Origin: a virus | DNA length: 37,639 nt | Strand: one strand, 5' to 3' | Virus record (IMG/VR): IMGVR_UViG_3300009285_007532 | Location: 1 to 37,639 of that record | Shown: in pieces, positions 9,341 to 34,423 of the stretch | Numbering within the stretch: the first letter of the stretch is position 1 | Layout of the letters: every line of letters starts with the position of its first letter | Position numbers and translations under genes: made by a program | The notes under the pieces: generated by a model | The model's database searches: none | Seen by the model: only the letters and a program-made list of their open reading frames with translations | Told to the model about the DNA's origin: nothing

Positions 9341-9991
9341 ATGAAAAAGTTATGGATTCTAATTCTATTAACTGTGTTGCTGGTGGGATGCAACGGTTTT
9401 CAATGGGGGACTTCTGAACAACGAATTGCCAATCTAGAAAAAGCAGTGGCTACTAGTCAGGCCGCTGTTGCCAATATGGACAAAGACGTGGCTACGTTGC
9501 AGGACATCATTACCCGCAGCCAAACTTATTTAGCAACTGCCGGACTGGATGCCGATACCACGGCCAAACTTACAAAGATTCTAACCGATGCCCAGAATAT
9601 TTTGGCTAATACTTTGGCTAAAAAAATGCAAGTGCAAACTGACCTTACAAGTTATCAGCAACAAATTCTGGCAGTACAATCTGGGGAGCAAGGACTTGGC
9701 CAGGAATTACAGCTGTACGGACAGGGCATCCAAAAAATTGGAGGCTATGTACCGCAGCCTATAGGCCCCTGGGTTGGTCTGGGTGGTACGGGCCTGGCAT
9801 TGATAGGCTCCATAATTGTTAGTTTGCAGAAGCTCAAGAAGAAAGACGCTACCACAACCAATATTGTGGAATCTGTCGATGCTCTGCTCAAATCTTTAAG
9901 CGAGGCTGAAGCTGCTAAGGCCAAACTAGTTCTGAAAGATTCCCAGACTCCGGAAGCCAGAGCAGTGGTGATGGAAGTGCATAATACTTGA
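9341..9991 (+). CDS. Lipoprotein with C-terminal membrane segment (spanin-like)
   Basis: The 216-residue protein starts with a signal peptide ending in a lipobox (LLVGC, Cys17), so it should be anchored in a membrane by lipid. A long coiled coil follows (about 25-125), then a membrane segment (about 143-163, PWVGLGGTGLALIGSIIVSL) and a helical charged tail of about 50 residues. A lipid anchor at one end and a transmembrane helix near the other is the layout of unimolecular spanins, which fuse inner and outer membranes at the end of lysis. The extra tail is longer than usual. GGAGG six bases upstream fixes the start. It could instead be a prophage surface protein. Confidence 0.6.
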   Translation: MKKLWILILLTVLLVGCNGFQWGTSEQRIANLEKAVATSQAAVANMDKDVATLQDIITRSQTYLATAGLDADTTAKLTKILTDAQNILANTLAKKMQVQTDLTSYQQQILAVQSGEQGLGQELQLYGQGIQKIGGYVPQPIGPWVGLGGTGLALIGSIIVSLQKLKKKDATTTNIVESVDALLKSLSEAEAAKAKLVLKDSQTPEARAVVMEVHNT

Positions 9992-10039: not shown

Positions 10040-10258
10040 TTGCTGCCGGAAAATGTTAGTTATATGCGTTTGTGTTTGCACGGCAAAGCGGCTCGAAACT
10101 GTCGGCACCAGGTTCCTTATGTCAAGGGCTTTTATGGTTGTACAAACGTAGAGAGAAATCTGCTGGAAGTGGAATGGTGCGGTAGTCGGCCTAAAGAATG
10201 TAAAGGTTGGGAACAGGCTCGTATAACTGAAATAGAAAATGGAAATACCCGTTCATAA
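10040..10258 (+). CDS. Small cysteine-containing protein (uncertain start)
   Basis: This is a frame of up to 72 residues with several Cys (CLHGKAARNC, YGCTN, EWCG, KECKGW), likely zinc or disulphide bound. It overlaps the start of the fibre gene by 20 bases, which favours a real gene. The start is unclear: TTG at 10040 or ATG at 10064. A competing frame from ATG 10017 exists but is less convincing. No function can be given. Confidence 0.45.
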   Translation: MLPENVSYMRLCLHGKAARNCRHQVPYVKGFYGCTNVERNLLEVEWCGSRPKECKGWEQARITEIENGNTRS

Positions 10259-11495
10259 CATTACCGCCGCCGAAATCGCCGCTGCTGCTACGCAGACTAT
10301 CAGTGCCAGCAACTTCACCATCCAGCATAATAACCAGCCGGTGGTGCTGATTACGCTTACTGGAACGTTTCAAACCCGTACCAGCGATGCCACTACGGCC
10401 ATTGCTGACGGGGTTAAAGACGGTCAGATATTAACTCTGGTACTCAAAGATATTGGTAACGGAAATTCAATAATAATTAAGGACAATGCTAATACTGCTC
10501 TCCGGGGAGATTGGTATAGGGCTGTCGTTGAAACTTGGTTGAAATTGTCCTGGGACCAGACGGCCTCTCAATGGATTGAAACAGGCGCAAATGACGGCAC
10601 CGGTACGGCCAGCGGCATTAATTCTCATGCTGAAGGTACGGGTACAATAGCTAGCGGTGAATCTTCTCACGCTGAAGGCAATGCCACAACGGCCAGCGGC
10701 ATTCGTTCTCATGCTGAAGGCAATCTTACAGTGGCTAGTCAGACTTCTGCTCACGCTGAAGGCGACACTACAACAGCCAGTGGTATTCGTTCCCATGCTG
10801 AAGGTACATCTACAACAGCTAATAACGAGAATGCTCATGCTGAAGGCTTATTCGGAATAGCCAGCGGTGCTGGTGCTCATGCCGAAGGTAGATATACAAC
10901 AGCTAGCGGTGAATCTGCTCATGCCGAAGGTTATGGTGCAACAGCCACTGGCACTCGTTCCCATGCCGAAGGCAACGGCACATTAGCCAACGGTTTCGGT
11001 TCTCATGCCGAAGGTGGGGCTTCTTCAACCAGGCTCATAACCTATTTGTTCGCCACGGCCTCCGGATATTTTTCAGCAGGGGGAGATGCCCAATTTACCC
11101 GTGTTGTTATGCGTCGCCAAATAACGCATAGCAGTAGTGTGGCGACTTGGTACAGTCTTTTTATTGATGGAGTTACGGCCACAGAACTATTCAAAATCCC
11201 TGCGAATACGGTTATCAATTTCAGGGTTATGATTGTTGGTAAAACAGATGACGACAGCAAACGATTTGCTTACAATATCACGGGAGCTATTGCTAGAAAT
11301 GGAGCCAATTCTACCGTGATTCTCGGAACACCAACAATAACAAATGTGTATGAGGCTGACGATACGGATTATGAAGTTCAGGCCATTGCCGATAATAACA
11401 ATGAGGCTCTTGATATACAGGTTCGAGATACTACCTTTGCAGGAGATACTGTTCGTTGGGTAGCCGTGATTGAAGCCCTTGAGGTTGGATATTGA
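10239..11495 (+). CDS. Tail fibre/spike with SHAEG repeats
   Basis: The 418-residue protein has a beta-rich N-terminal domain (about 1-120). Ten copies of a 14-residue (S/A)HAEG repeat follow, spanning about residues 130-263. The C-terminal domain (about 275-418, with the GDAQFTRVV and VRWVAVIEALEV borders) is common at the end of phage fibres. The repeats resemble the trimeric left-handed beta-roll of YadA-type heads and of phage spikes. It is therefore probably a trimeric receptor-binding or head fibre. It lies before the tail Z-U-V block rather than after the tape measure, which is unusual for a tail fibre and may mean a head or neck fibre. Confidence 0.8.
   Translation: MEIPVHNITAAEIAAAATQTISASNFTIQHNNQPVVLITLTGTFQTRTSDATTAIADGVKDGQILTLVLKDIGNGNSIIIKDNANTALRGDWYRAVVETWLKLSWDQTASQWIETGANDGTGTASGINSHAEGTGTIASGESSHAEGNATTASGIRSHAEGNLTVASQTSAHAEGDTTTASGIRSHAEGTSTTANNENAHAEGLFGIASGAGAHAEGRYTTASGESAHAEGYGATATGTRSHAEGNGTLANGFGSHAEGGASSTRLITYLFATASGYFSAGGDAQFTRVVMRRQITHSSSVATWYSLFIDGVTATELFKIPANTVINFRVMIVGKTDDDSKRFAYNITGAIARNGANSTVILGTPTITNVYEADDTDYEVQAIADNNNEALDIQVRDTTFAGDTVRWVAVIEALEVGY
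10624..11030 (+). repeat. 42-bp (14-residue) SHAEG repeats, ten units
   Basis: The period is 42 bp. Each unit begins with a Ser/Ala-His-Ala-Glu-Gly codon block (TCTCATGCTGAAGGT-like) and continues with a variable TTASG part. Third-position changes between units show the array is older than the decoration-gene duplications. Confidence 0.85.
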
Positions 11496-21816: not shown

Positions 21817-22154
<338 letters not shown>

Positions 22155-23315
22155 ATGGCAAAATCGCAATCCAAGCCGCCCGGATGCATATACGCTAACA
22201 ATGGCCGGCTCTGGTGGCGAGGCAAGCTGCCTGGGGAGGACAAGCAAAAATATCGACCCATCCGGCCTCCGGGGGCAAGACACGCCCTCCTGGACTCGCC
22301 TGACAACCGTAAAGCTGCTGTGTATATCGTCCGTAATTGGTGGGAGACCGCAGCCAGAAAACATAGTGGCGGAAAGGTTACAACTGTATCTGACCTGGTT
22401 GCTGCCTATATTGCGCATGCCCAGATATACTACCGCCGTCAAGATGGTACGCTCACAGGTGAGGCAAAAAGGATTATTTGGGGAATCAGGCTGGTTAGCG
22501 AACATTACGGATCGTTGCCGGCCGATGCGGTAACACAGACGGAAATCAAGGCGATTCGTCAAAAGATGATCGATGACAATCTGGCCCGGACGACCATCAA
22601 TGCCAAGATCAATATCGTCAAACGCATGTATTACTGGGCCGCCGATGAACAAATAGTGCCTCCATCAACGTGGCATGCGGTCCAGGTCGTCCGTAATCTC
22701 CAACGCGGCCGCTCAGGGGCCCGTGAAACCGCTATAGTACGCCCAATTGACGAGAAACAGGTGAGAGCCGTCCTGCCCTACATGCCTGCTACGTTGCAAT
22801 CTATGGTCCAGCTACAGCTCTTGACAGGTATGCGTAGCACAGAGGTCTGCTTACTGAGACCCCAGAATATTGACCGTTCAGGGACGGTGTGGATTTACCG
22901 GCCGGAGCAGCATAAGACCGAGCACCTGGGACATACCCGGCACGTGGCGATCGGGCCTCAAAGTCAAAAGATTCTAAGGCCTTTTCTGGAGCGAAAGCCT
23001 GATCAATATTGCTTTACTCCTGATGACTCTATGGCCCAGCGTGGGCGGTCCCGGCAGGCTATGCGGCCCTTGTACGATCGGCGGACCTACTACCGTGCTA
23101 TTTGGTACGCCATCAAGACAGCCAGGCGTGATGGGCTTCAGGTGGAATGCTGGGGGCCGCACCGATTGCGGCACACCTTCCTGACCAACATCCGCAAACA
23201 CTTCGATATAGAAACGGCCCGCATCGCCGGCGGGCACTCCAACATGTCGTCCACGGAGATCTACGCCGAGCGGGACCTGGCCCGGGCCGAAGAAGTAGCT
23301 AGGCAGTTAGGTTAA
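22155..23315 (+). CDS. int: Tyrosine integrase
   Basis: The 386-residue protein integrates the phage into the host at the tRNA-like attP just upstream. An N-terminal arm-binding region (to about 75) and a core-binding SAM-like domain (about 75-175) precede the catalytic domain. Catalytic residues are visible as Arg227 (TGMRSTEV), His336-x-x-Arg339 (HRLRHT), His361 (GGHSN) and nucleophile Tyr370 (TEIYAERD). ATG 22155 is chosen; upstream codons give no better start and the ribosome site is weak. The RHTF...GGHS...IYAERD style is common in Planctomycetota. Confidence 0.93.
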   Translation: MAKSQSKPPGCIYANNGRLWWRGKLPGEDKQKYRPIRPPGARHALLDSPDNRKAAVYIVRNWWETAARKHSGGKVTTVSDLVAAYIAHAQIYYRRQDGTLTGEAKRIIWGIRLVSEHYGSLPADAVTQTEIKAIRQKMIDDNLARTTINAKINIVKRMYYWAADEQIVPPSTWHAVQVVRNLQRGRSGARETAIVRPIDEKQVRAVLPYMPATLQSMVQLQLLTGMRSTEVCLLRPQNIDRSGTVWIYRPEQHKTEHLGHTRHVAIGPQSQKILRPFLERKPDQYCFTPDDSMAQRGRSRQAMRPLYDRRTYYRAIWYAIKTARRDGLQVECWGPHRLRHTFLTNIRKHFDIETARIAGGHSNMSSTEIYAERDLARAEEVARQLG

Positions 23316-23819: not shown

Positions 23820-24632
23820 TCAACTACTTGTTCTAAGCAAAAACATAACAATCAATATCAGTATTATTACTCCAATTACGGTCGCACAACCAGTCGGATT
23901 GTTTTTTTTCTCCACCAGGGGGATAAATTCATCTCTGAGATTGCGCATTGGAGCAGGCCGTTCTTGTATTCCAAGTTTTTTTCGGATTAATCCTGCTGTG
24001 GTCATATAAGCAATGGTTTTCTTGCTGCCGCCTACGTGAACCGTACCATCGCTATCCGTTTTCTCGCCGAAACTGATCAATTCAAACCCGCTATATCGCT
24101 TAATAGAACTGATAACTTTCTCATCCTCGGTAAGCTCCGAGGAAATGTTTTGGACAAAGGTTTTGTCAAACCCGCTGTCAGCAGGATGATACCAATTGGC
24201 GTGTTGAAATTCACGAAGGACCATATAGGTGAACCACAGAGCCAAATCTTTTTCTCTACCCGGTTCTTTAAGGGCTTCTGTTATCCGCTCGAATAGTGCG
24301 ACTTTCCCACTATAATCACTGCAAAGCACGCCCAAGTCCCTCGCCCAATTACACAATCTTGCTGGAGACGGTTCATCTTCCGATTCATACCTAGTGAGTA
24401 AATCGCTCATTTCCTGTTTAGTTATATCAGATGGAAAGGCTAAGCCTATGCCACGAGCATAAACAATTTGTCGTTCAGTTGCTGGTTCATCGGGAAGCTG
24501 TTCTATCCTTTCGACAATTGTTCCATCTTCGCCTGCTTTGAGAATGGCTTCTTTTTCATCTTTGGCCTTGTAAGTTCGCTTACGTCTTTGCCCCGAATCC
24601 CGGCCATAACCGTGGACTTGAAATTGTAGCAT
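23820..24632 (-). CDS. Tail-anchored protein, possible superinfection-exclusion factor
   Basis: This 270-residue protein has a small N-terminal beta/alpha segment (about 1-45). A helical SAP-like piece follows (ATERQIVYARGIGLAFPSDITKQEMSDLL, about 50-82), then a larger cytoplasmic domain and a single C-terminal membrane helix (about 249-265, VIGVIILILIVMFLL). It should be anchored in the inner membrane facing the cytoplasm. GGGGG lies five bases before the ATG. Two direct CTAACATT repeats (24667-24685) lie in its upstream region. As a leftward gene downstream of the repressor it is probably expressed in lysogeny. Confidence 0.6.
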   Translation of the reverse strand: MLQFQVHGYGRDSGQRRKRTYKAKDEKEAILKAGEDGTIVERIEQLPDEPATERQIVYARGIGLAFPSDITKQEMSDLLTRYESEDEPSPARLCNWARDLGVLCSDYSGKVALFERITEALKEPGREKDLALWFTYMVLREFQHANWYHPADSGFDKTFVQNISSELTEDEKVISSIKRYSGFELISFGEKTDSDGTVHVGGSKKTIAYMTTAGLIRKKLGIQERPAPMRNLRDEFIPLVEKKNNPTGCATVIGVIILILIVMFLLRTSS

Positions 24633-26008: not shown

Positions 26009-26362
26009 AGAGAATAATGGCAAGGACGCTGAAACGACATTTCATTCAGGCTACGGCTGGGTGCTCCGCCCAGACGAGTCGTTCTTTCTCTCCTTCTCTC
26101 AGGCCCGTGGCTTCCCTCGGCCCGCAGGCTTCGCCTTCGAGGCTGAGCTTCGTCCACCTCGGCCCGTGGCTTCGCCCCGAGGCGAGCGTGAGACGGGCCG
26201 AGAGGCGAGCACCCGCATCGATGAGTCCGCGAGGCGTGCCCCGAGGCGAGCGTGGATTACTCCGGTCCATGCCTGGCAATCATTTGTCCATGTACCAGGG
26301 GTGGATGGTCTTTTGGCTTGCTTTCCCATCCACCCCGCAATTTTGTAAGCTGAGGTAAACAC
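26009..26362. other. REP-rich non-coding stretch
   Basis: Between the excisionase-like gene and the membrane-protein fragment there is no convincing full gene. A short frame begins at ATG 26016 (MARTLKRHFIQATAG) and runs into repeats. The stretch is filled by GC-rich palindromic repeats of the TTCGCCCCGAGGCGA family from about 26100 to 26255. Confidence 0.6.
26104..26206. repeat. 103-bp exact direct repeat, copy 1 (REP cluster)
   Basis: This segment is identical to 26480-26582, as far as I can read base by base. It contains palindromes such as GGCTTCGCCCCGAGGCGAGC, able to form short stable hairpins. The lack of any difference suggests a recent duplication or gene conversion. Confidence 0.85.
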
Positions 26363-26479: not shown

Positions 26480-26602
26480 CCCGTGGCTTCCCTCGGCCCG
26501 CAGGCTTCGCCTTCGAGGCTGAGCTTCGTCCACCTCGGCCCGTGGCTTCGCCCCGAGGCGAGCGTGAGACGGGCCGAGAGGCTTCGCCCCGAGGCGAGCC
26601 CG
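26480..26602. repeat. 103-bp exact direct repeat, copy 2, plus extra REP unit
   Basis: 26480-26582 repeats 26104-26206 exactly, 376 bp away. A further GCTTCGCCCCGAGGCGAGCC unit follows at 26581-26600. The block lies directly before the tRNA gene. Confidence 0.85.
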
Positions 26603-26632
26603 TGCCTGGGTATAAAAAAAACGGGGTTAGGC

Positions 26633-26705
26633 TGCGGGGTAGAGCAGCAGGTAGCTCGTGTGGCTCATAACCACAAGGTCCCAGGTTCAAATCCTGGCCC
26701 CGCCA
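26633..26705 (+). tRNA. tRNA-Met(CAT), initiator-like
   Basis: A full cloverleaf of 73 nt. Acceptor TGCGGGG/CCCCGCC has a 1:72 mismatch (T.C). D stem GAGC/GCTC has an 8-base loop, anticodon stem TGTGG/CCACA has loop CTCATAA (anticodon CAT), the variable loop is AGGTC, and T stem CCAGG/CCTGG has loop TTCAAAT. CCA is not encoded. The unpaired 1:72 position and the A11-T24 pair are marks of initiator tRNA, but the usual three G-C pairs of the anticodon stem are not complete (29:41 is T-A). It is probably a phage-borne initiator derivative. Confidence 0.88.
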
Positions 26706-26847: not shown

Positions 26848-26914
26848 CCCGTGGCCCTCAGCTTCGTCCACCTCGGCGTGAGACGGGCCGAGAGGCGAGC
26901 TTCGCCCCGAGGCG
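26848..26914. repeat. Partial REP cluster with TCGAC-type palindrome
   Basis: Partial copies of the repeats seen at 26.1 and 26.5 kb. They are preceded (26818-26846) by TTCGACAGGCTCACGGCGAG...GTCGAG, the form of a widespread bacterial REP family. They interrupt a frame starting at ATG 26778 (MNSRKHIARQEQS). From 26755 to 27082 I see no other convincing gene. Confidence 0.65.
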
Positions 26915-27082
26915 AGCCGTTGCCACCGAGCCCCGCACGAACGGCCAGCGCCAAGGAGGGTTGCAGGCTGGGCGGCAGGAGGCATATGCCCGTTTGGCGT
27001 GCGGGGTTTTATTTACTACCAGACTGGGGCGGGCTGTTTTGGGACTGCTCCCGGCCCGCCTCCCGTTTTATATGGAGACGCC

Positions 27083-27283
27083 ATGAACGGATGTCTAATC
27101 AATAAGAAGGCTGTGCGAAATTTTATCCTAGGCCAAGCCAAAGTGATGAGGCCGGGATGGAAATGCCGGCGGGTCAGCGCTCAATCCCTGGACGAAATCG
27201 ATGCTCTGCTGCGTTTCAAGCTGACCAGGATGGTTCATATGCATCCGAGTCGAGGAGTTACCTTCAAAGAGGTTCAAACGTGA
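27083..27283 (+). CDS. Small helical basic protein
   Basis: This 66-residue protein is rich in Lys/Arg helices (KKAVRNFILGQAKVMRPGW, SLDEIDALLRFKLTRMVHMHPS). The pattern somewhat resembles a minimal histone-fold protein, but this is a guess. GGAGA four to eight bases upstream supports ATG 27083. Its TGA overlaps the next GTG (GTGA), so the pair is coupled. Confidence 0.6.
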   Translation: MNGCLINKKAVRNFILGQAKVMRPGWKCRRVSAQSLDEIDALLRFKLTRMVHMHPSRGVTFKEVQT

Positions 27284-27807
27284 AGATTGTCGATTGGGCC
27301 ATTTTGGGAGTTGTTGTCGGTGCCTCTATCTTTTCGGCCATTCGGCTAGCTCATGGTGAGTGGAATCGAACCACAGCGCATAAACAATCCGAGCGTGGGG
27401 CCCGCTGCGAGGAGTATCCCCCCACCCCTCCAGCCCCACGCCCGGATCATATTGACCCTGTAATACAAACTGAGCGGCTCATTTGGACCCACGAATCTGT
27501 GGGAGGCACGCAGATGAGCGGGGATGGCGGTCTGGCCCAGGGGTATCAGCAGCACCACCAAGCAACCTGGAACGATGCGCTTGAAATGCTTGGATTGCGG
27601 GATGATCCGGATTGGCAATGGCCCGGAGCAACCCGCGATCTATGGCGATGCTATGTAGTCACCATAGCTCACTGGCAGAGGTACTGTCCGGAGGCTTTGA
27701 AATCTGCTGACGTAGAATTGTTGGTGCGAACTCATCGGCTTCCAACTCTGCCATATCGAAAAGACAACAATAAATATCTGGAACTTGTTTTGAGAGGAGA
27801 AAATTAG
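27280..27807 (+). CDS. Membrane-anchored protein, GTG start
   Basis: This 175-residue protein starts with GTG at 27280, overlapping the previous stop and preceded by AGAGG. An N-terminal membrane helix (IVDWAILGVVVGASIFSAIRLA) is followed by a proline-rich linker and a cytoplasmic or periplasmic domain rich in Trp and His (about 95-175). Function unknown. Structured element A begins within its last codon. Confidence 0.55.
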   Translation: MKIVDWAILGVVVGASIFSAIRLAHGEWNRTTAHKQSERGARCEEYPPTPPAPRPDHIDPVIQTERLIWTHESVGGTQMSGDGGLAQGYQQHHQATWNDALEMLGLRDDPDWQWPGATRDLWRCYVVTIAHWQRYCPEALKSADVELLVRTHRLPTLPYRKDNNKYLELVLRGEN

Positions 27808-27906
27808 CCCTACAGCGGTCAGATGGCCGTGAAGGTTGTCCACACTATAGCCAGCTATCGAAGCTCGTAGAGCGATTAAGGATTAATCCTGCTGGCCCGT
27901 AGGGCT
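27806..27906 (+). ncRNA. TIR-closed structured element A
   Basis: AGCCCTAC (27806-27813) pairs with GTAGGGCT (27899-27906), followed by TTTATT. Inside are a hairpin CGGTC/GGCCG and a palindrome AGGATTAATCCT just before GGCCCGTAGGG. Elements B and C have the same ends but CCCTGCGG/CCGCAGGG, so the closing stem co-varies (T-A here, G-C there). It may be a small RNA, a leader for the next gene, or a miniature element. Confidence 0.5.
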
Positions 27907-27925
27907 TTTATTGGGAAGCAAGGTT

Positions 27926-28153
27926 ATGAATGTTGTTTTAGTGGATCAACGCGTTGGCCTACCAGAGTTGCTAGAAGGCGAATCGTGTCGACAGTGCGGA
28001 ATAGTTGTCGTCACAGAACTGCATTGTAAGGATCGGGGAAATGGTTCATTGGTATCGGCGACTGTCGACGGCAATATCTACTGGATTTCGCCGGTCATCG
28101 GTCCGTTTTGTTCAGTGCCGTGTGCACTACGGTATATGGAGATAAATCTGTAA
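27926..28153 (+). CDS. Small protein with two Cys pairs
   Basis: This 75-residue beta-rich protein has CRQCG near residue 23 and FCSVPC near residue 63, likely a single zinc site (treble-clef or rubredoxin-like knuckles). AAGG precedes ATG 27926. It lies between structured elements A and B. Function unknown. Confidence 0.55.
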   Translation: MNVVLVDQRVGLPELLEGESCRQCGIVVVTELHCKDRGNGSLVSATVDGNIYWISPVIGPFCSVPCALRYMEINL

Positions 28154-28160
28154 GGAGATC

Positions 28161-28325
28161 GCCCTGCGGCGGCGTGGTAAGACACGCTGATGACCCTAAG
28201 TGAGAAGCTGCTTAACATCCGCCAGCATTCTGGACTTGATGGAGCAGCGAGAGGGGTTGCTTGCGAGCGTAAGCTATGACCAAGATGGAACTCACAGTAG
28301 CTGGATTGAATCCGGCCCGCAGGGC
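28161..28325 (+). ncRNA. TIR-closed structured element B
   Basis: GCCCTGCGG (28161-28169) pairs perfectly with CCGCAGGGC (28317-28325). Next to the 5' end is CGGCGTGG with hairpin GCGTG/CACGC and GATGAC. Before the 3' end is GGATTGAATCCGGC. The same marks occur in element C. The 165 bp contain only poor short frames. It is not followed by a U-tract. Confidence 0.5.
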
Positions 28326-28392
28326 TTAAAAAACAAAGCGACAATGTGTTGTTTCATTAAGTTTTTTTCACAAATTGGATAGGAGATATGTC

Positions 28393-29232
28393 ATGGAATC
28401 GTCAAATAACTTCGATGTTTTGGAACAATTTCTTCGTCGTGTGGGCAAGGGACAAGAGAACGTCATTGAGATTATCAAAGAAGTTCTTCAGGATGGCAGT
28501 GAAAAAGTAACCATGGCTTTACAAAATCGCCAGCTCCAGCCGGAGCAAAAACCCCATCCGGTGCGTATGGAAAGCCCTGCCCGGGAGCACAAATTTCACG
28601 ACGTGATGGGTTTTGTCAAGTACCTCCAAAAATACGCCAGCGAAGATACCGTAGTTTTTGGAGACTTGGCGAGCCTAAAATTTTCTGCGATTCTGAACGA
28701 CAGGGCGAAAAATGGCTTTGAAATCATCACCTTCAGGCCGGGCCTTTATCCGGTCTATGCAGCCTGGGAAAATGTTCTAGATAAGGAGATCAAGCTCGAA
28801 GAATTCGTCAATTTTCTGATTTCCCATCGGCGAAGTATAAGCGAGCCGGACGGTAAGGAATTGGTATTTACCTTATCCCAAGTCAAGGCCTCGACACATA
28901 TCACTCTGAACAAAGGCAGAGGTAATCACGCCATCAATGGTTTGATGTGCGAAACGTCCATACAAGGGCAAAACAAGAGCGAGCCGGTGGAGTTGCCTGA
29001 AATCATCGTTTTGCAAACGCCCATCTTCGTCAACACCGAAGAGAAACGCATCGAGGTGGACATGGTCCTCAGTGCCAGAGGCCAGGATATTTTTGTTTTG
29101 GCCACTTCATCCGATGTGCTATTAGCCAAGCTGGAGGCCTTCGATAAAATGGCCGCGGTCATCGGTGAAAATGAGAAGTTCATTTTGACCAGCGGCAATC
29201 CGGATTATGGATCATGGGCGTATATAAGCTAA
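28393..29232 (+). CDS. DUF2303 family protein (YfdQ-like)
   Basis: This 279-residue protein matches the DUF2303 pattern seen in early regions of temperate phages: an N-terminal helical part, then VMGFVKYLQKYASEDTVVF, a beta-rich core and a final strand set. Function is unknown in all members; linkage to recombination or plasmid-like genes is common. AGGAG six to ten bases upstream fixes ATG 28393. It precedes a smaller companion gene, as often seen. Confidence 0.75.
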   Translation: MESSNNFDVLEQFLRRVGKGQENVIEIIKEVLQDGSEKVTMALQNRQLQPEQKPHPVRMESPAREHKFHDVMGFVKYLQKYASEDTVVFGDLASLKFSAILNDRAKNGFEIITFRPGLYPVYAAWENVLDKEIKLEEFVNFLISHRRSISEPDGKELVFTLSQVKASTHITLNKGRGNHAINGLMCETSIQGQNKSEPVELPEIIVLQTPIFVNTEEKRIEVDMVLSARGQDIFVLATSSDVLLAKLEAFDKMAAVIGENEKFILTSGNPDYGSWAYIS

Positions 29233-29289
29233 CCCCGGTTAGCAGAAAACCTAAAGGATAAGATAATCCCTCAATTTTAGGAGAACATT

Positions 29290-29676
29290 ATGGCTAAGAA
29301 ATTTAGCCCCTTGAAACTCGAATTGATTGATGAAGGGCGGTTCATGGGACAAGCTGAAGAGGACCTATCCGATCTACAGGCTCAGCTGGCACATTATTGT
29401 GAAGAGCATGGGGAAAAGGCCAAGGGAGCTAAGGCCAAACTTACCATAGAGGTATCTCTGGTCAGCGAAAATCCTGAGCAAGACTTATTCTCTATCAAGG
29501 CCGTAGTTAAAAAACAACTGCCTGGCCGGCCGCCCAGTGTGACGGCTGCCATTGGCAGTGATGACCAGGAAGGCCAACACTGTTTATTCGTCCGCAACTC
29601 CGGATCAACAGAGGACAGTCCTCGCCAGGATGTACTTTTTACGAAGGACGGTAAGACCGTCCCCACTGAGGATTGA
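29290..29676 (+). CDS. DUF2303-companion phage protein
   Basis: This 128-residue protein follows DUF2303, an arrangement I recall from other phages. It has a helical N-terminal half (DLSDLQAQLAHYCEEHGEK) and a beta half (KLTIEVSLVSENPEQDLFSI), a fold like single-strand binding or replication accessory proteins, but no function is known. A GGAG site upstream supports the start. Confidence 0.6.
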   Translation: MAKKFSPLKLELIDEGRFMGQAEEDLSDLQAQLAHYCEEHGEKAKGAKAKLTIEVSLVSENPEQDLFSIKAVVKKQLPGRPPSVTAAIGSDDQEGQHCLFVRNSGSTEDSPRQDVLFTKDGKTVPTED

Positions 29677-29724
29677 CTCTTGTCTCGGCGAAGACCCGAA
29701 CCGCCGTCAGGCCACGGCACGCCT

Positions 29725-29795
29725 GCTCGTCGAGGCGTAGCTCGCCTCGGGGCGAAGCCACGGGCTCGCCTCGGGGCGAAGCCACGGGCTCGCCG
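29725..29795. repeat. REP repeats, tandem 24-bp units
   Basis: CTCGCCTCGGGGCGAAGCCA plus CGGG occurs twice in tandem (29741-29764 and 29765-29788). It is the reverse complement of the units at 26.1-26.6 kb. It sits between the DUF2303 pair and the ParB-like gene, without breaking a gene. Confidence 0.8.
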
Positions 29796-29862
29796 TAGCC
29801 TGGCCGTGCCAGGGTAGCCGGAGCGATCTACCTAAAACCAAAAAAAAGGAGGTTTTTTTGCT

Positions 29863-31359
29863 ATGGGAAAGAAATCAGATATTAGGGATGCTTCGCAAAA
29901 AAAGAACGATGCAACTAGTAGCTTAACCGGGGATATCTCGATCTCATTAATCGACCTGGTGGTGGACAATCACCGTACCAGCATGGATCGGGACAAGCTC
30001 CAGGAGCTGGCTAACAGCATGGCTGAAGTTGGCCTGATGAATGCCATCGGACTTTGCCGGCGAGACAAGCGTTATGTGATGATCTACGGCCATCGCCGGT
30101 TCGAGGCCGCTAAGCTGCTCACGTGGACCAAAATCAAAGCGGACGTCTATAAGAACTTGACCGATCTGCAAATTGCAGAAATGCAATTTATAGAGAATCT
30201 GCAGCGTGAGGATCTCAATCCGATCGATGAGGCTTATGGGATAAAAGCCCTGCTCAATGCCGGTCAATCCGTTGATACCATAGCCAGCCGGATTGAACGC
30301 GGCGTGGCTTTCGTCCGGGCCCGTCTGGATTTGCTCCGATTGCATAAGGACGTTCAACCCCTGGTAGCTTCGGGAAGGATTCCCCTGGCTCATGCCCGGC
30401 TGATAGCTCGTATCGGTGACCAGTCTGTTCAGAAGAATATGGCTTTTGATGTCATCAAGGGGAGTTATGACGACACCACCATGGCCAAGGCCATCCAGGG
30501 TGACTATATCGTGCCTCTGGACTATTTGCGCAAGCGTATTACCTGGCGACTGCAGACCCTGGGGGCCAAGGGCTGGCCCATGGATAGCGAGTACGCCGGC
30601 CAGCGTCCGTGTCTGGGCTGCCCGGACAATACCACCACCGAGCCGGGACTATTCGACGGTATCAATCTGCCAGGCAAATCACCAAAGGGAAACTGCACCA
30701 ACGTGGGATGTTTTAGTATCAAGGCCAAGGCCTGGGATAAAGACCCCATGAGGATCGAGAAGGTCAAGGCCCGCCAAGCCAAGAATAAAAAGGCTGGAGA
30801 AACCAAAAAGACTGAGGATGCCAGCTCCTCAAAAAACAAAGAGCTTAACAAAAAGCGGGAGGCATTTCCATCCAATGAACAAGAGATATTTGCCGTCGAG
30901 CTTTGGCAGTACGGCAAAAATCTGGCAGCCGCGATCGAAGCATTTCTAAAAGAAAAGGAGCTGCCGGCTGACACATTGGTTTGTCTATTCTATCTGAATT
31001 TTGTCATAAACCCATGGAATGGCATAACTATTGATAAAAAGGTTTCATTATCAGAACTGGTTAAGATATTTGGGAAAGAGGGTAATATCGAGATCGAGCA
31101 AGAAATACTAATCGATCAAGAAATACTAATCGATTGCTTAGAAAATATCACAAATACTTTGGATAATTACGAGCCCCATTGGCCAGATTATAAGAACGAA
31201 CCGCAGAATATTCCTCTCAATAAAGATGATGTGCAAGCAATAGATTGCATCGAGGCCCTGGCCAAGCGATGGGGAATCATAATTGATAAAGTCCGTCCAG
31301 TCGAGCCAAAGAAGGCCGAAAAACCCAAGAGCAAAAAACCAGTCAAGAAAGAAGCATAA
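29863..31359 (+). CDS. ParB-like protein with cysteine cluster
   Basis: This 498-residue protein has a ParB N-terminal domain (about 20-120: IDLVVDNHRTSMDRDKLQELANSM, GHRRFEAAK, ENLQREDLNPIDEA) with the residues of the CTP-binding fold. A KorB-like HTH follows (about 125-185). Near 255-285 a Cys cluster (CLGC...CTNVGCF) is seen, then a charged linker and a helical end. No ParA lies in the window, so it may regulate transcription or replication rather than partition. AGGAGG precedes ATG. An 18-bp tandem duplication (31099-31134) encodes repeated QEILID. Confidence 0.85.
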   Translation: MGKKSDIRDASQKKNDATSSLTGDISISLIDLVVDNHRTSMDRDKLQELANSMAEVGLMNAIGLCRRDKRYVMIYGHRRFEAAKLLTWTKIKADVYKNLTDLQIAEMQFIENLQREDLNPIDEAYGIKALLNAGQSVDTIASRIERGVAFVRARLDLLRLHKDVQPLVASGRIPLAHARLIARIGDQSVQKNMAFDVIKGSYDDTTMAKAIQGDYIVPLDYLRKRITWRLQTLGAKGWPMDSEYAGQRPCLGCPDNTTTEPGLFDGINLPGKSPKGNCTNVGCFSIKAKAWDKDPMRIEKVKARQAKNKKAGETKKTEDASSSKNKELNKKREAFPSNEQEIFAVELWQYGKNLAAAIEAFLKEKELPADTLVCLFYLNFVINPWNGITIDKKVSLSELVKIFGKEGNIEIEQEILIDQEILIDCLENITNTLDNYEPHWPDYKNEPQNIPLNKDDVQAIDCIEALAKRWGIIIDKVRPVEPKKAEKPKSKKPVKKEA

Positions 31360-31362
31360 CGC

Positions 31363-31728
31363 ATGGAAGCTGTTGCCATAGAGCTACCGTTCCCGCCGAC
31401 GATAAACCATTATTATCGCCGGAATGGAGCTGCCACCTTTATCAGCGAAGAAGGCCAGATGTACCGTGAAACGGTTTTTGGTTTGTTAGCTGAAGCTGGT
31501 GTGCAAACCTTTAGGGGAAAGGTCTCGCTTACATTGGATTTACATCCTCCGGACAGACGAATTCGCGATATTGATAACTATCAAAAGCCTTTGCTGGACG
31601 CCCTGGAAAAAGGAAGGGCCTACAACAATGACAACCAGGTGAAGCGATTATTGACCATCATGCATGAGCCTGACGGTCGTGGCAGAGTCCTGGTAGCTAT
31701 ATCCAAGCTTGGAAAGCAGCGGTCATGA
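31363..31728 (+). CDS. rusA: RusA-like Holliday junction resolvase
   Basis: This 121-residue protein resolves four-way junctions during replication and recombination. It has the RusA signature PPDRRIRDIDNYQKPLLDAL with acidic residues near Asp69, Asp71 and Asp90 (NNDNQV), the metal-binding set, and starts with the typical LPFPPTINHYYR strand. It begins three bases after the ParB-like stop and overlaps the next gene by four bases, so it is part of the replication operon. Confidence 0.92.
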   Translation: MEAVAIELPFPPTINHYYRRNGAATFISEEGQMYRETVFGLLAEAGVQTFRGKVSLTLDLHPPDRRIRDIDNYQKPLLDALEKGRAYNNDNQVKRLLTIMHEPDGRGRVLVAISKLGKQRS

Positions 31729-32006
31729 CTGAGATTGACGGACAGACTGAGTGGGTATTAACTCAGCTCAAAGCTGGGCGAAAGATCACGCCCCAGGATG
31801 CCATGAACGAACGGGGAATTATGAGGCTGGGAGCCAGGATATGGGACTTGCGTCAAGCCGGCGTGGATATCAAGAGCCGCATCAAAACAGTGCTCAATCG
31901 TTTTGGCAAAAAGTGCCGGGTAGCTGAGTATTATCTGGAGCCTCCCAAATCGAAAGTTCCGCCAGGTTTTCTGTTCGAGACCCGTCAATTAGCACAAGTG
32001 CATTAG
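31725..32006 (+). CDS. Winged helix DNA-binding protein (HTH_39-like)
   Basis: This 93-residue protein has a helix-turn-helix (WVLTQLKAGRKITPQDAMNERGIMRLGARIWDLRQAG) as in small phage proteins placed near replication genes. It overlaps RusA by four bases (ATGA). It may regulate or help load the replication complex; no more can be said. Confidence 0.7.
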   Translation: MTEIDGQTEWVLTQLKAGRKITPQDAMNERGIMRLGARIWDLRQAGVDIKSRIKTVLNRFGKKCRVAEYYLEPPKSKVPPGFLFETRQLAQVH

Positions 32007-32028
32007 TTCGGAATATAACAGGAGATGA

Positions 32029-33063
32029 ATGATGTTCAAAATAGTTGACTGGGTTGATTTATATGAAGTCAACGACCGCGGCGATCCGGCCAAGCCGGGG
32101 GAGTCCCTGCGACGCAAACCATTAGATTACATTCGTCTGCGAAATCACGGGCGGGCGGTAGGCCTTGGCTTTCGCCGGATGCAATCGCTGACCAGAGACA
32201 AGCGGCTCACCTGGGATACCTTCGGGAAGTTTTGCAAGCTGCTGGAGATAGCAGGGGCAGCCCCGGGCAGCCAGCGGGGAATGCTCCTTAACGAGAAGGG
32301 ATTGCCGGCATCTGTTGAGGACCTGGCGTTCCTGTTCGACGTGCCGGTTGATGATATGCAATTTACCATGGACGTGCTCTGTGATCCCCTGGTCCATTGG
32401 GTTCATAACAACGGGCAGTCCCCCTCGCCTGTCAATAACTCTGAAGTTCCCAACAGCTCCGGGAATCTCCGGAAATTTACCGGAAACCCGGAAGATTCCG
32501 GAAAATCTCCGGAAACAGAAAAAAAAACTACAAATCGGTATGAACCTCAAAAACAAGCCAGAAATGGCGTTTCCCGGGAATCTCCGGAAAATCTCCGGAA
32601 AGCTCGGAAAACCCGGGAAAAAATCTGCCGCTTAAATAACCGAACTGAAGTTAAACTGAATAGAATTAAAGAGTCTTCTAACGTTAAGCCTAGCATTAAG
32701 AAGCATTCTTCCTTCCAGTCCTTGTCGGACCGGAATAAAAATCAAACGGGGGAGAAGATCGGTTCGGCACGGCCAGAAACCAGATTGAGCCTTATCTGTC
32801 AGAAGTTCGCCCTGGCAGCCACAGAGATCATCAACAAACGCTGGCCGCGTAAACATGAACAAATCGAGATGGATGCTCAGGACTTGGTTAGCCTAGCTCG
32901 GCACGTGGCCTGCGAATGTCCCGATTCCGAGCGGCTCAAAGACCAATTGGACAAACTGCTCGAGCTGCTCAGAGAGAAAGCCGCGTGCCCCAGGCTAAAC
33001 CCCGGCAGTTTTTTCGCCGCGGCTATGAAACGCTTCCCATCCTGGCGAAAAAGAAAAAAGTAA
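32029..33063 (+). CDS. Replication initiator-like protein (O position)
   Basis: This 344-residue protein has an N-terminal helical, winged-helix-like domain (about 1-130) and a C-terminal helical domain (about 245-344, ICQKFALAATEIINKRW...LVSLARHVACEC). A low-complexity linker lies between them. The DNA of the linker holds an array of about ten CCGGAAA-like units with 10-11 bp spacing. Lambda O likewise carries its iterons inside its gene, so this is the likely initiator and origin. No helicase or loader was recognised nearby. AGGAG upstream; two ATG codons in a row (32029 and 32032). Confidence 0.6.
   Translation: MMFKIVDWVDLYEVNDRGDPAKPGESLRRKPLDYIRLRNHGRAVGLGFRRMQSLTRDKRLTWDTFGKFCKLLEIAGAAPGSQRGMLLNEKGLPASVEDLAFLFDVPVDDMQFTMDVLCDPLVHWVHNNGQSPSPVNNSEVPNSSGNLRKFTGNPEDSGKSPETEKKTTNRYEPQKQARNGVSRESPENLRKARKTREKICRLNNRTEVKLNRIKESSNVKPSIKKHSSFQSLSDRNKNQTGEKIGSARPETRLSLICQKFALAATEIINKRWPRKHEQIEMDAQDLVSLARHVACECPDSERLKDQLDKLLELLREKAACPRLNPGSFFAAAMKRFPSWRKRKK
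32458..32620 (+). repeat. Iteron-like array, candidate replication origin
   Basis: CCGGAAA-type units begin near 32469, 32480, 32488, 32498 and 32509, and again near 32574, 32584, 32595, 32604 and 32613. The spacing is 8-11 bp, about one helical turn. The two blocks flank an A-rich segment from 32516 to 32570, a possible unwinding region. The array lies inside the initiator-like gene. Confidence 0.6.
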
Positions 33064-33081
33064 ATAAGAACGGAGAAAATA

Positions 33082-33258
33082 ATGGTATATATGAAACAAC
33101 ACTTCGAACAATGTTGTTTAAATTGCCGATGGTCGAGCATGACCGAATTGGGGCAAATAGGGTCTTTAGGTTGTAAACATAATCCACGGCCAGAAGGCGT
33201 TAAGGCTGACCGCAAAGTTTCTCCAAACGGCATTTGTGAATATTGGAAAAAAGATTAA
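33082..33258 (+). CDS. Small cysteine-rich protein
   Basis: This 58-residue gene starts at ATG 33082 after GGAGA. The protein has CCLNCRW near the start, GCKHNP in the middle and ICEYW near the end, the pattern of a small phage zinc-finger protein. It lies between the initiator gene and a KOW/SH3-like gene, and its end is before the next start. Function unknown. Confidence 0.7.
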   Translation: MVYMKQHFEQCCLNCRWSSMTELGQIGSLGCKHNPRPEGVKADRKVSPNGICEYWKKD

Positions 33259-33287
33259 TCAACCCCCGCGGAGAAATAGGCAAACAA

Positions 33288-33542
33288 ATGAACCCGACTG
33301 AAGCCATCGTTGGTACGAGGGTAAAAGCCCTGTTCAATTTTGCCGGCGTTCCCAGGAACACTAAAGGCGTTATCGATGAAGATTACGGCACAGGCGTTAT
33401 GGTAGCTTGGAATTTGAAAGATAGACCATTGCCAGAAGGCTATACCTGCTTTGATGGGAAGCCAGCTTGCATAACCGGCATTCTCAGAGACGGCTTCGAC
33501 AAAAACACAGAACTACACTTGCTCGAAAAGATAGCTGGATGA
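33288..33542 (+). CDS. Small SH3-like beta protein
   Basis: This 84-residue protein is mostly beta (VGTRVKALFNFAGVPRNTKGVIDEDYGTGVMVAW), which resembles a KOW or SH3-like barrel. I chose ATG 33288, since an upstream TTG overlaps the previous gene. The ribosome site (AGG, seven bases) is modest. Function unknown. Confidence 0.6.
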   Translation: MNPTEAIVGTRVKALFNFAGVPRNTKGVIDEDYGTGVMVAWNLKDRPLPEGYTCFDGKPACITGILRDGFDKNTELHLLEKIAG

Positions 33543-33566
33543 TCACCGTTATCAAGGAGAATAATA

Positions 33567-33746
33567 ATGAGCCCGGCTACTGTAGAACGAGCGATCTGGA
33601 GAGAATTGCGAGAAATCACATGCAACAAGAAGCTCAGATTGAAGGACATAACGGAATGGAGAACCAGTGAGTTTCAGTCGCAAGAAGGCGAAAAGCTAGT
33701 ATTTTTGCCGGGGTTGAAGGTATGGGTAGCATACAAAGAGAATTAA
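33567..33746 (+). CDS. Small phage protein, unknown
   Basis: This 59-residue gene has a strong AAGGAGA site six bases before ATG 33567. The protein is a helix pair followed by beta strands (CNKKLRLKDITEWRT...VFLPGLKVWVAYK), a type I recall as common and unassigned in phage early regions. Three bases separate it from the DUF4326 gene. Confidence 0.7.
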   Translation: MSPATVERAIWRELREITCNKKLRLKDITEWRTSEFQSQEGEKLVFLPGLKVWVAYKEN

Positions 33747-33749
33747 AGC

Positions 33750-34088
33750 ATGAAAACCACCGTCGTCAATGTCCGCCACCACGAGTTCGATGTCTATATC
33801 GGGCGGAGAATAAATACTCCCCGCTGTCGTTTCATGGCCAGTAAATGGGCGAATCCGCATAAGGTCGGGCCAGGTTGTACCCTGAAACAATCTCTGCAAA
33901 GATACGAAACCGATACCAGGAACAATCCTGTGCTTATGGCCGCCCTACCGGAGCTTGTCGGAAAACGGTTAGGCTGCTGGGATGTAAAAGAGCCGATTAG
34001 CGAAGTACAGGCTAACCCCGTGTGCCACGGCGAAATCCTGTTAAAATTATTACAGGAAATGAAATCCAAGGAGCAAAAAAATGTCTAA
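33750..34088 (+). CDS. DUF4326 family protein
   Basis: This 112-residue protein fits DUF4326: FDVYIGRRINTPRCRFMASK leading to WANPHK at the start, and LPELVGKRLGCWDV with NPVCHGEILLKLL at the end. The conserved Cys and His suggest metal binding. The family is widespread in phages and its function is unknown. It overlaps the next gene by eight bases. Confidence 0.85.
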   Translation: MKTTVVNVRHHEFDVYIGRRINTPRCRFMASKWANPHKVGPGCTLKQSLQRYETDTRNNPVLMAALPELVGKRLGCWDVKEPISEVQANPVCHGEILLKLLQEMKSKEQKNV

Positions 34089-34275
34089 AACAAAAAAACT
34101 TCCCCAACAGGTAATCGTCAGATGGGAGATTGACAACAGTGGAGAGTATTATCTTGAAGTAGTACCATTATCTAATTTAGCTTTAATGGGCCTTCAAGAT
34201 GAGACTTGTATGGTTGGTATCTATAATCTTAGTCGGAAACAAAAGGTAATCAACAGAACAACTTTTGTAGGATAA
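34081..34275 (+). CDS. Small beta protein, unknown
   Basis: This 64-residue protein is mostly beta (VIVRWEIDNSGEYYLEVVPLSNL; VGIYNLSRKQKVI) and starts inside the DUF4326 gene after AAGGAG. It ends just before structured element C. Function unknown. Confidence 0.6.
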   Translation: MSKTKKLPQQVIVRWEIDNSGEYYLEVVPLSNLALMGLQDETCMVGIYNLSRKQKVINRTTFVG

Positions 34276-34281
34276 GAATAA

Positions 34282-34423
34282 CCCCTGCGGCGGCGTGGAC
34301 CGATGACGATAGCCCCCCATGATGCAAGATCCACGGCGTAATCATGGAGGACATACTCACATGCCGGTACAAGAGCTATCTAGTGTTGATTACATTTATG
34401 CGTAAGGAATCCGGCCCGCAGGG
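34282..34423 (+). ncRNA. TIR-closed structured element C
   Basis: CCCTGCGG (34283-34290) pairs with CCGCAGGG (34416-34423). As in element B, CGGCGTGG and GATGAC follow the 5' end and GGAATCCGGCCCGCAGGG forms the 3' end. CGTGGA (34293-34298) can pair with TCCACG (34330-34335), and the interior otherwise differs. No gene with good signals lies inside. Small frames (for example from ATG 34344) were not accepted. Confidence 0.5.

Follow-up and report, generated by a model that had tools for sequence, protein, structure and literature searches.

Elements in the window phage

The window analysed here is a stretch of 37,639 nucleotides that makes up the whole of the viral record IMGVR_UViG_3300009285_007532. 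Three elements whose two ends pair with each other lie on its + strand, at 27806-27906 (A), 28161-28325 (B) and 34283-34423 (C). A sequence-only reading had placed them there, and the positions held to within 1-2 bases. In element A, the closing stem P1 (27806-27813 with 27899-27906, AGCCCTAC/GTAGGGCT) encloses a helix P2 (27816-27820 with 27825-27829, CGGTC/GGCCG) and a helix P3 (27850-27854 with 27892-27896, GCCAG/CTGGC). In element B, P1 (28161-28169 with 28317-28325, GCCCTGCGG/CCGCAGGGC) is followed by the linker CG, P2 (28172-28176 with 28183-28187, GCGTG/CACGC), a long variable middle arm and P3 (28300-28304 with 28312-28316, GCTGG/CCGGC), which closes the 7-nt loop ATTGAAT. Element C has P1 at 34283-34290 and 34416-34423 (CCCTGCGG/CCGCAGGG), again with the linker CG, and long loops in both P2 (34294-34299 with 34330-34335, CGTGGA/TCCACG) and P3 (34363-34367 with 34411-34415, GCCGG/CCGGC).

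The pattern CCCT[GA]C[GA]GC[GA]G...GGCCCG[CT]AGGG, with 50-160 bases allowed between the ends, occurs three times in the window and in none of 300 dinucleotide shuffles. The 11-base 3' motif by itself, with two mismatches allowed, was not in excess of chance in the window.

The virus is probably temperate and its host is probably a planctomycete, as judged from the matches of its integrase and of a partial tRNA gene. The tyrosine integrase (22122-23315, + strand, PF00589) matched 42 of 294 genomes of the planctomycete phylum at E<=1e-30, with an identity of up to 44%; in 50,697 phage records it had a single, weak match. Because it resembles many proteins of this phylum and hardly any named phage, a planctomycete host is favoured. 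Just before the integrase gene, at about 21970-22014, the 5' half of a tRNA gene (GGGGCGATTAGCTCAGTTGGTTAGAGCGCTTGCTCGACA) is present on the reverse strand; it has one-mismatch matches in two of 246 planctomycete genomes and is the likely core of the phage attachment site. Among the planctomycete genomes sampled, no such prophage turned up. A complete tRNA-Met (CAT) gene, flanked by GC-rich repeats, is located at 26633-26705. GC-rich repeats around GGCTTCGCCCCGAGGCGAGC occupy 26104-26206, 26480-26582, 26580-26607, 26899-26918 and 29740-29789; they include an exact duplicate of 103 bases, as well as copies in inverted orientation at a distance of 3 kb. As a clue to the host, this repeat pattern was sought in 294 planctomycete genomes and occurred in none of them.

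Two further members in a second phage

A scan of 2.9 million viral contigs in IMG/VR for the 15-base 3' end matched 54 places. Two of these, 456 bases apart and both with the full 5' end, belong to IMGVR_UViG_3300005663_000285 (L041; the whole record is L138), in which they are located between genes of a different phage. The search for further homologues that the earlier reading had proposed thus yielded two elements outside the window, D1 and D2, and both carry compensated changes. Other IMG/VR matches, obtained with single-end or loosened two-end patterns, looked like coding sequence or lacked the fold, and L041 was judged to be the only true relative among the pattern matches.

The two phages have a CopG-like protein in common, with 75% identity, and beyond this protein tblastn of the window ORFs against L138 gave no convincing match. 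By this comparison, the L138 virus is a distant relative of the window virus with few proteins in common. Since it shares the CopG-like protein and little else, the family is not a by-product of near-identical genomes. L138 also contains repeated spacers (GGTGTGGCTAA(C/G)TTAGGA...) at 9639-9679, 10119-10159, 10381-10422 and 10935-10976, which sit immediately ahead of the start codons of several small genes and include a 42-base exact duplicate.

The addition of D1 and D2 showed which of the resemblances first noticed among A, B and C belong to the family. The interiors do differ more than the ends, their longest words in common being 7-8 nt, and the five elements have no reading frame in common. 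The GGA..ATCC palindrome, proposed as a common feature, is missing in D1 (..TCGAATCC), and its version in C (GGAATCC) is unable to fold into a hairpin; what is conserved in this region is AATCC, adjoining P3. Likewise, GATGAC follows P2 in B, falls within the P2 loop in C and is missing in A, D1 and D2, and its presence in both B and C is probably a coincidence.

Common fold and covariation

As far as can be read from their sequences, the five members have one fold, which consists of P1, a linker of 0-2 nt, P2, a variable middle and P3, whose 3' strand continues directly into the 3' strand of P1 without a linker. In A, P1 pairs CCCTAC with GTAGGG, and in the other four members it pairs CCCTGCGG with CCGCAGGG. 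On its outer side it gains one or two further pairs in A, B and D1; in D2 it gains six, and the stem there reaches 14 bp as pairing continues past the conserved end (AGTTTA/TAAACT) into the flank (AGTTTACCCTGCGG/CCGCAGGGTAAACT). The linker between P1 and P2 is CG or CA and is absent in A. Apart from the arms given above for A and C, P2 is GCGTG/CACGC, or GCGTT/AACGC in D2, and P3 pairs GCTGG, GTCGG or GCCGG with CCGGC in all members other than A. The loop of P3 is T-loop-sized only in B (ATTGAAT), D1 and D2 (TATCGAAT and TGGAAAT); it is 35-45 nt long in A and C.

When the stems of the five members were concatenated, 92.4% of the cells were paired and both sides had changed in 7 of 21 pairs, spread over P1, P2 and P3; these counts are inflated, as the partners in P2 and P3 were picked in each sequence for their pairing, and they come from five members in two phages only. 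None of 500 shuffles was as high in either respect, and slid registers paired at only 31-46%. Because of this selection in P2 and P3, the changes in P1 and the unforced folds are cleaner evidence than the pair counts of these two helices. The replacement of G-C by A-U in the closing stem of A, which had been noticed from the three window elements, is genuine, and D1 and D2 supply more compensated changes. Six pairs of P1 are the same in all five members. When A, B, C and D1 are folded to minimum energy without constraints, P1, P3 and a P2 helix are all present; D2 favours another fold by 3.7 kcal/mol over the family helices. Compared with shuffles, the folding z was -2.7 to -4.5 for A, B, D1 and D2 (-4.5 for B, against dinucleotide shuffles) and -1.0 for C, which is barely better than a shuffled sequence.

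On the + strand, P3 of B, D1 and D2 contains G-U pairs, as does P2 of A; P1 of A has one A-C mismatch, which would be a G-U pair on the opposite strand. Both the + strand G-U pairs and the sense orientation shared by the five members favour an RNA made from the + strand.

These features also bear on the possibility that the elements are DNA sites for a phage protein, either operators or centromere-like sites of a ParB-type protein. Such a protein, with ParB_N/HTH_ParB, is indeed encoded between B and C (29863-31359), and the palindrome GGATTAATCC of A recurs once, at 23984. However, what is conserved is two separated half-stems that pair across a variable interior, G-U pairs being present on one strand; B, C, D1 and D2 lack the palindrome, and tblastn of the ParB-type ORF against L138 found no relative. 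We see only a slight chance that this explanation is correct. The palindrome is held in a 15-base word, GGATTAATCCTGCTG, found at 27880-27894 within A and at 23984-23998, where it falls inside the reverse-strand ORF 23820-24632.

Placement of the elements

Each of the five elements lies on the sense strand behind a stop codon. The stop codon of the ORF upstream of A (27157-27807), at 27805-27807, overlaps the first bases of the element, and in B, C, D1 and D2 the closing stem comes 7-15 nt past the upstream stop codon, which makes a range of 0-15 across all five. The start codon of the next gene follows after a longer gap than this.

This placement matters for the suggestion, made in the earlier reading, that the elements might be miniature mobile elements, here taken as inverted-repeat, non-autonomous transposons. 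Their inverted ends match over 8-9 bp in A, B and C and over 14 bp in D2, there are several copies per genome, and two phages carry copies. However, the flanks, as read, showed a target-site duplication in none of the five copies; the sequence in common is confined to the ends, and the interiors are unrelated; the pairing of the ends of D2 extends 6 bp into the flank; all copies have a single orientation and sit at the ends of cistrons; and transposase was absent among the proteins searched, which were a subset of the ORFs. The suggestion is not supported and has a very slim chance. Both the miniature transposon and the protein-binding DNA sites are unlikely explanations.

Another view is that the elements are attenuators or intrinsic terminators between cistrons, with P1 or the small hairpin GGCCC-GYA-GGGCT as the stem. 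A T-run directly follows P1 in A, D1 and D2, and terminator-like matches occur at 27894-27906 and 27887-27904. However, B has only TT and C lacks a T-run, the region is no richer than shuffles in terminator-like sites, and neither P2 nor a co-varying P3 is required by a terminator, which makes this view improbable.

The T-runs are also compatible with the terminator-closed 3' end of stand-alone, trans-acting small RNAs, in which P1, P2 and P3 would be a common scaffold and the variable middle would be target-specific. A kept scaffold with unrelated interiors is what such RNAs would have. Against this, the elements begin at or just past a stop codon, and their own promoter would have to sit in the upstream gene; the region has about as many promoter-like matches as chance would give, and the interiors were not unusually complementary to the flanks or to the rest of the phage. 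Small RNAs of this type are possible but rather doubtful.

Covariance model and searches for relatives

We built a covariance model (R1) from the core pieces of D1, D2 and B, omitting part of the variable middle. In the window, L138 and 13 other loci, its next-ranked matches were C at 24.5 bits and A at 23.0 bits, and the best other match had 21.1 bits. A covariance model of the three window copies had been proposed as a check on the family; run with D1, D2 and B as the training set, it recovered the untrained C and A. A sequence at 7937-8063 of L107 (CCCTGCGGCGGC...CCCGGCCCGCAGGG) scored 21.1 bits, slightly under A and C; it is possibly a remote member or a chance match.

R1 was scanned against overlapping samples of 294, 1, 39 and 392 planctomycete genomes, with strict filters by which divergent members may be missed. 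The sole matches in the 392 genomes were two tRNA-Pro genes. In 282 kb made up of planctomycete integrase neighbourhoods and relatives, R1 matched only a tRNA-Gln and, next to an integrase, a tRNA 3' fragment. A pattern scan of 84,980 genomes gave seven matches, none of which had the conserved P2 and AATCC features. There was no match in blastn searches of B and D2 against phages or of B against plasmids. As search baits, the window ParB protein and a 263-aa protein of L041 led to no new phage; the CopG-like protein led to L136, which is the same phage in another assembly, identical over the shared part, and to a truncated relative, L137.

No Rfam family matched any element, either at the gathering score or at lax thresholds. 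The hammerhead ribozyme, with its core of CUGANGA and GAAA, was considered and rejected: B contains CTGATGA, but the corresponding bases are CTGAAGT in D1, CTGAGAG in D2 and GTGAAGG in A, and the Rfam search was negative.

Discussion

We suggest, with a probability of roughly 0.8, that the elements represent an undescribed and narrowly distributed family of structured RNAs. An undescribed RNA family was one of two readings first put forward for the window elements, and it is the one that gained from the homologues outside the window, the compensatory changes in P1, P2 and P3, the G-U pairs on the sense strand, the absence of an Rfam match and the lack of a common frame.

Among known RNAs, the elements most invite comparison with tRNA (RF00005). 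Like a tRNA, they have a closing stem that leads through a 2-nt linker to a hairpin resembling the D-arm. A stem of 5 bp also abuts the closing stem, and its loop, in the members where it is short, has 7-8 nt and ends in AAT. The best outside matches of R1 are tRNAs; in these, too, the closing stem carries a stacked 5-bp stem whose loop has AAT or similar at its end, as in the T-arm/acceptor arrangement. Unlike tRNAs, however, the elements have no anticodon arm, and their middle varies in length and is unrelated between members; there is no CCA after P1, the closing stem has at least 8 bp, and the T-loop bases are not kept. Compared with the 7-nt TTCRANN loop, the shape of a 5-bp stem with a T-loop-sized loop is present in B, D1 and D2 and absent in A and C. 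Neither ARAGORN nor the Rfam tRNA model recognised any element. That the elements are tRNA genes was rejected, given the missing anticodon arm and CCA and a P3 loop far too long in A and C. At most, the predicted stack of P1 and P3 imitates the top half of a tRNA.

The c4 antisense RNA of P1/P7-like phages (RF01695), which is processed by RNase P (PMC11143913), is also a small phage RNA inside a longer transcript, but Rfam gives no match for the elements, and their complementarity to the flanks does not exceed that of shuffles. The candidate structured RNAs manA, wcaG and GOLLD of phages and metagenomes (PMC2864571, PMC12286853) are likewise families of phage RNAs recognised by comparative genomics, with functions unknown or partly known; the distribution of our elements is far narrower, and they match no Rfam family. 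Intercistronic RNase P sites in bacterial operon mRNAs were reported by Li and Altman 2003, as far as the work is cited in PMC11143913. The elements resemble such sites in being a structured spacer between the cistrons of what would be a single transcript. To our knowledge, no sequence family with co-varying stems has been described for these sites.

How the phages may use the family can be proposed only tentatively. We give somewhat less than an even chance, with the family claim included, to a role in cis, in which the element would serve the early transcript as a module for processing or stability placed behind a cistron. This role is preferred because of the placement of the elements, their T-arm/acceptor shape and the known action of RNase P on phage C4 RNA, intergenic RNAs and operon mRNAs (PMC11143913). 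Elements of about 100-165 nt in the sense-strand spacers of the early operon would be transcribed within a polycistronic early mRNA and would act in cis. Each would fold immediately behind the upstream stop codon, and in this way the upstream cistron would have its 3' end marked or protected and would be set apart from the next one. The most likely route would be that P3 stacked on P1 forms a T-arm/acceptor-like helix offered to nucleases of the host that process tRNAs, of the type of RNase P or RNase Z/E; alternatively, the element may simply block exonucleases. The variable middle would be a free spacer.

A more far-reaching idea is that tRNA-like RNAs with exchangeable middle arms are freed from early mRNAs by the tRNA-processing enzymes of the host and are tRNA mimics. 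Acting as decoys, they might for example divert defence enzymes that cut tRNAs or host proteins that bind them. Both the mimicry and such a use seem to us highly improbable.

If the family is confirmed, the role in cis being one of its possible uses, it would be a new RNA family with several copies per genome, in phages probably of Planctomycetes. The RNA biology of phages in this probably planctomycete group looks little explored, and the recurrent placement of the elements behind stop codons would offer a handle on whether phages use tRNA-like folds to cut or stabilise the transcripts of their early operons.
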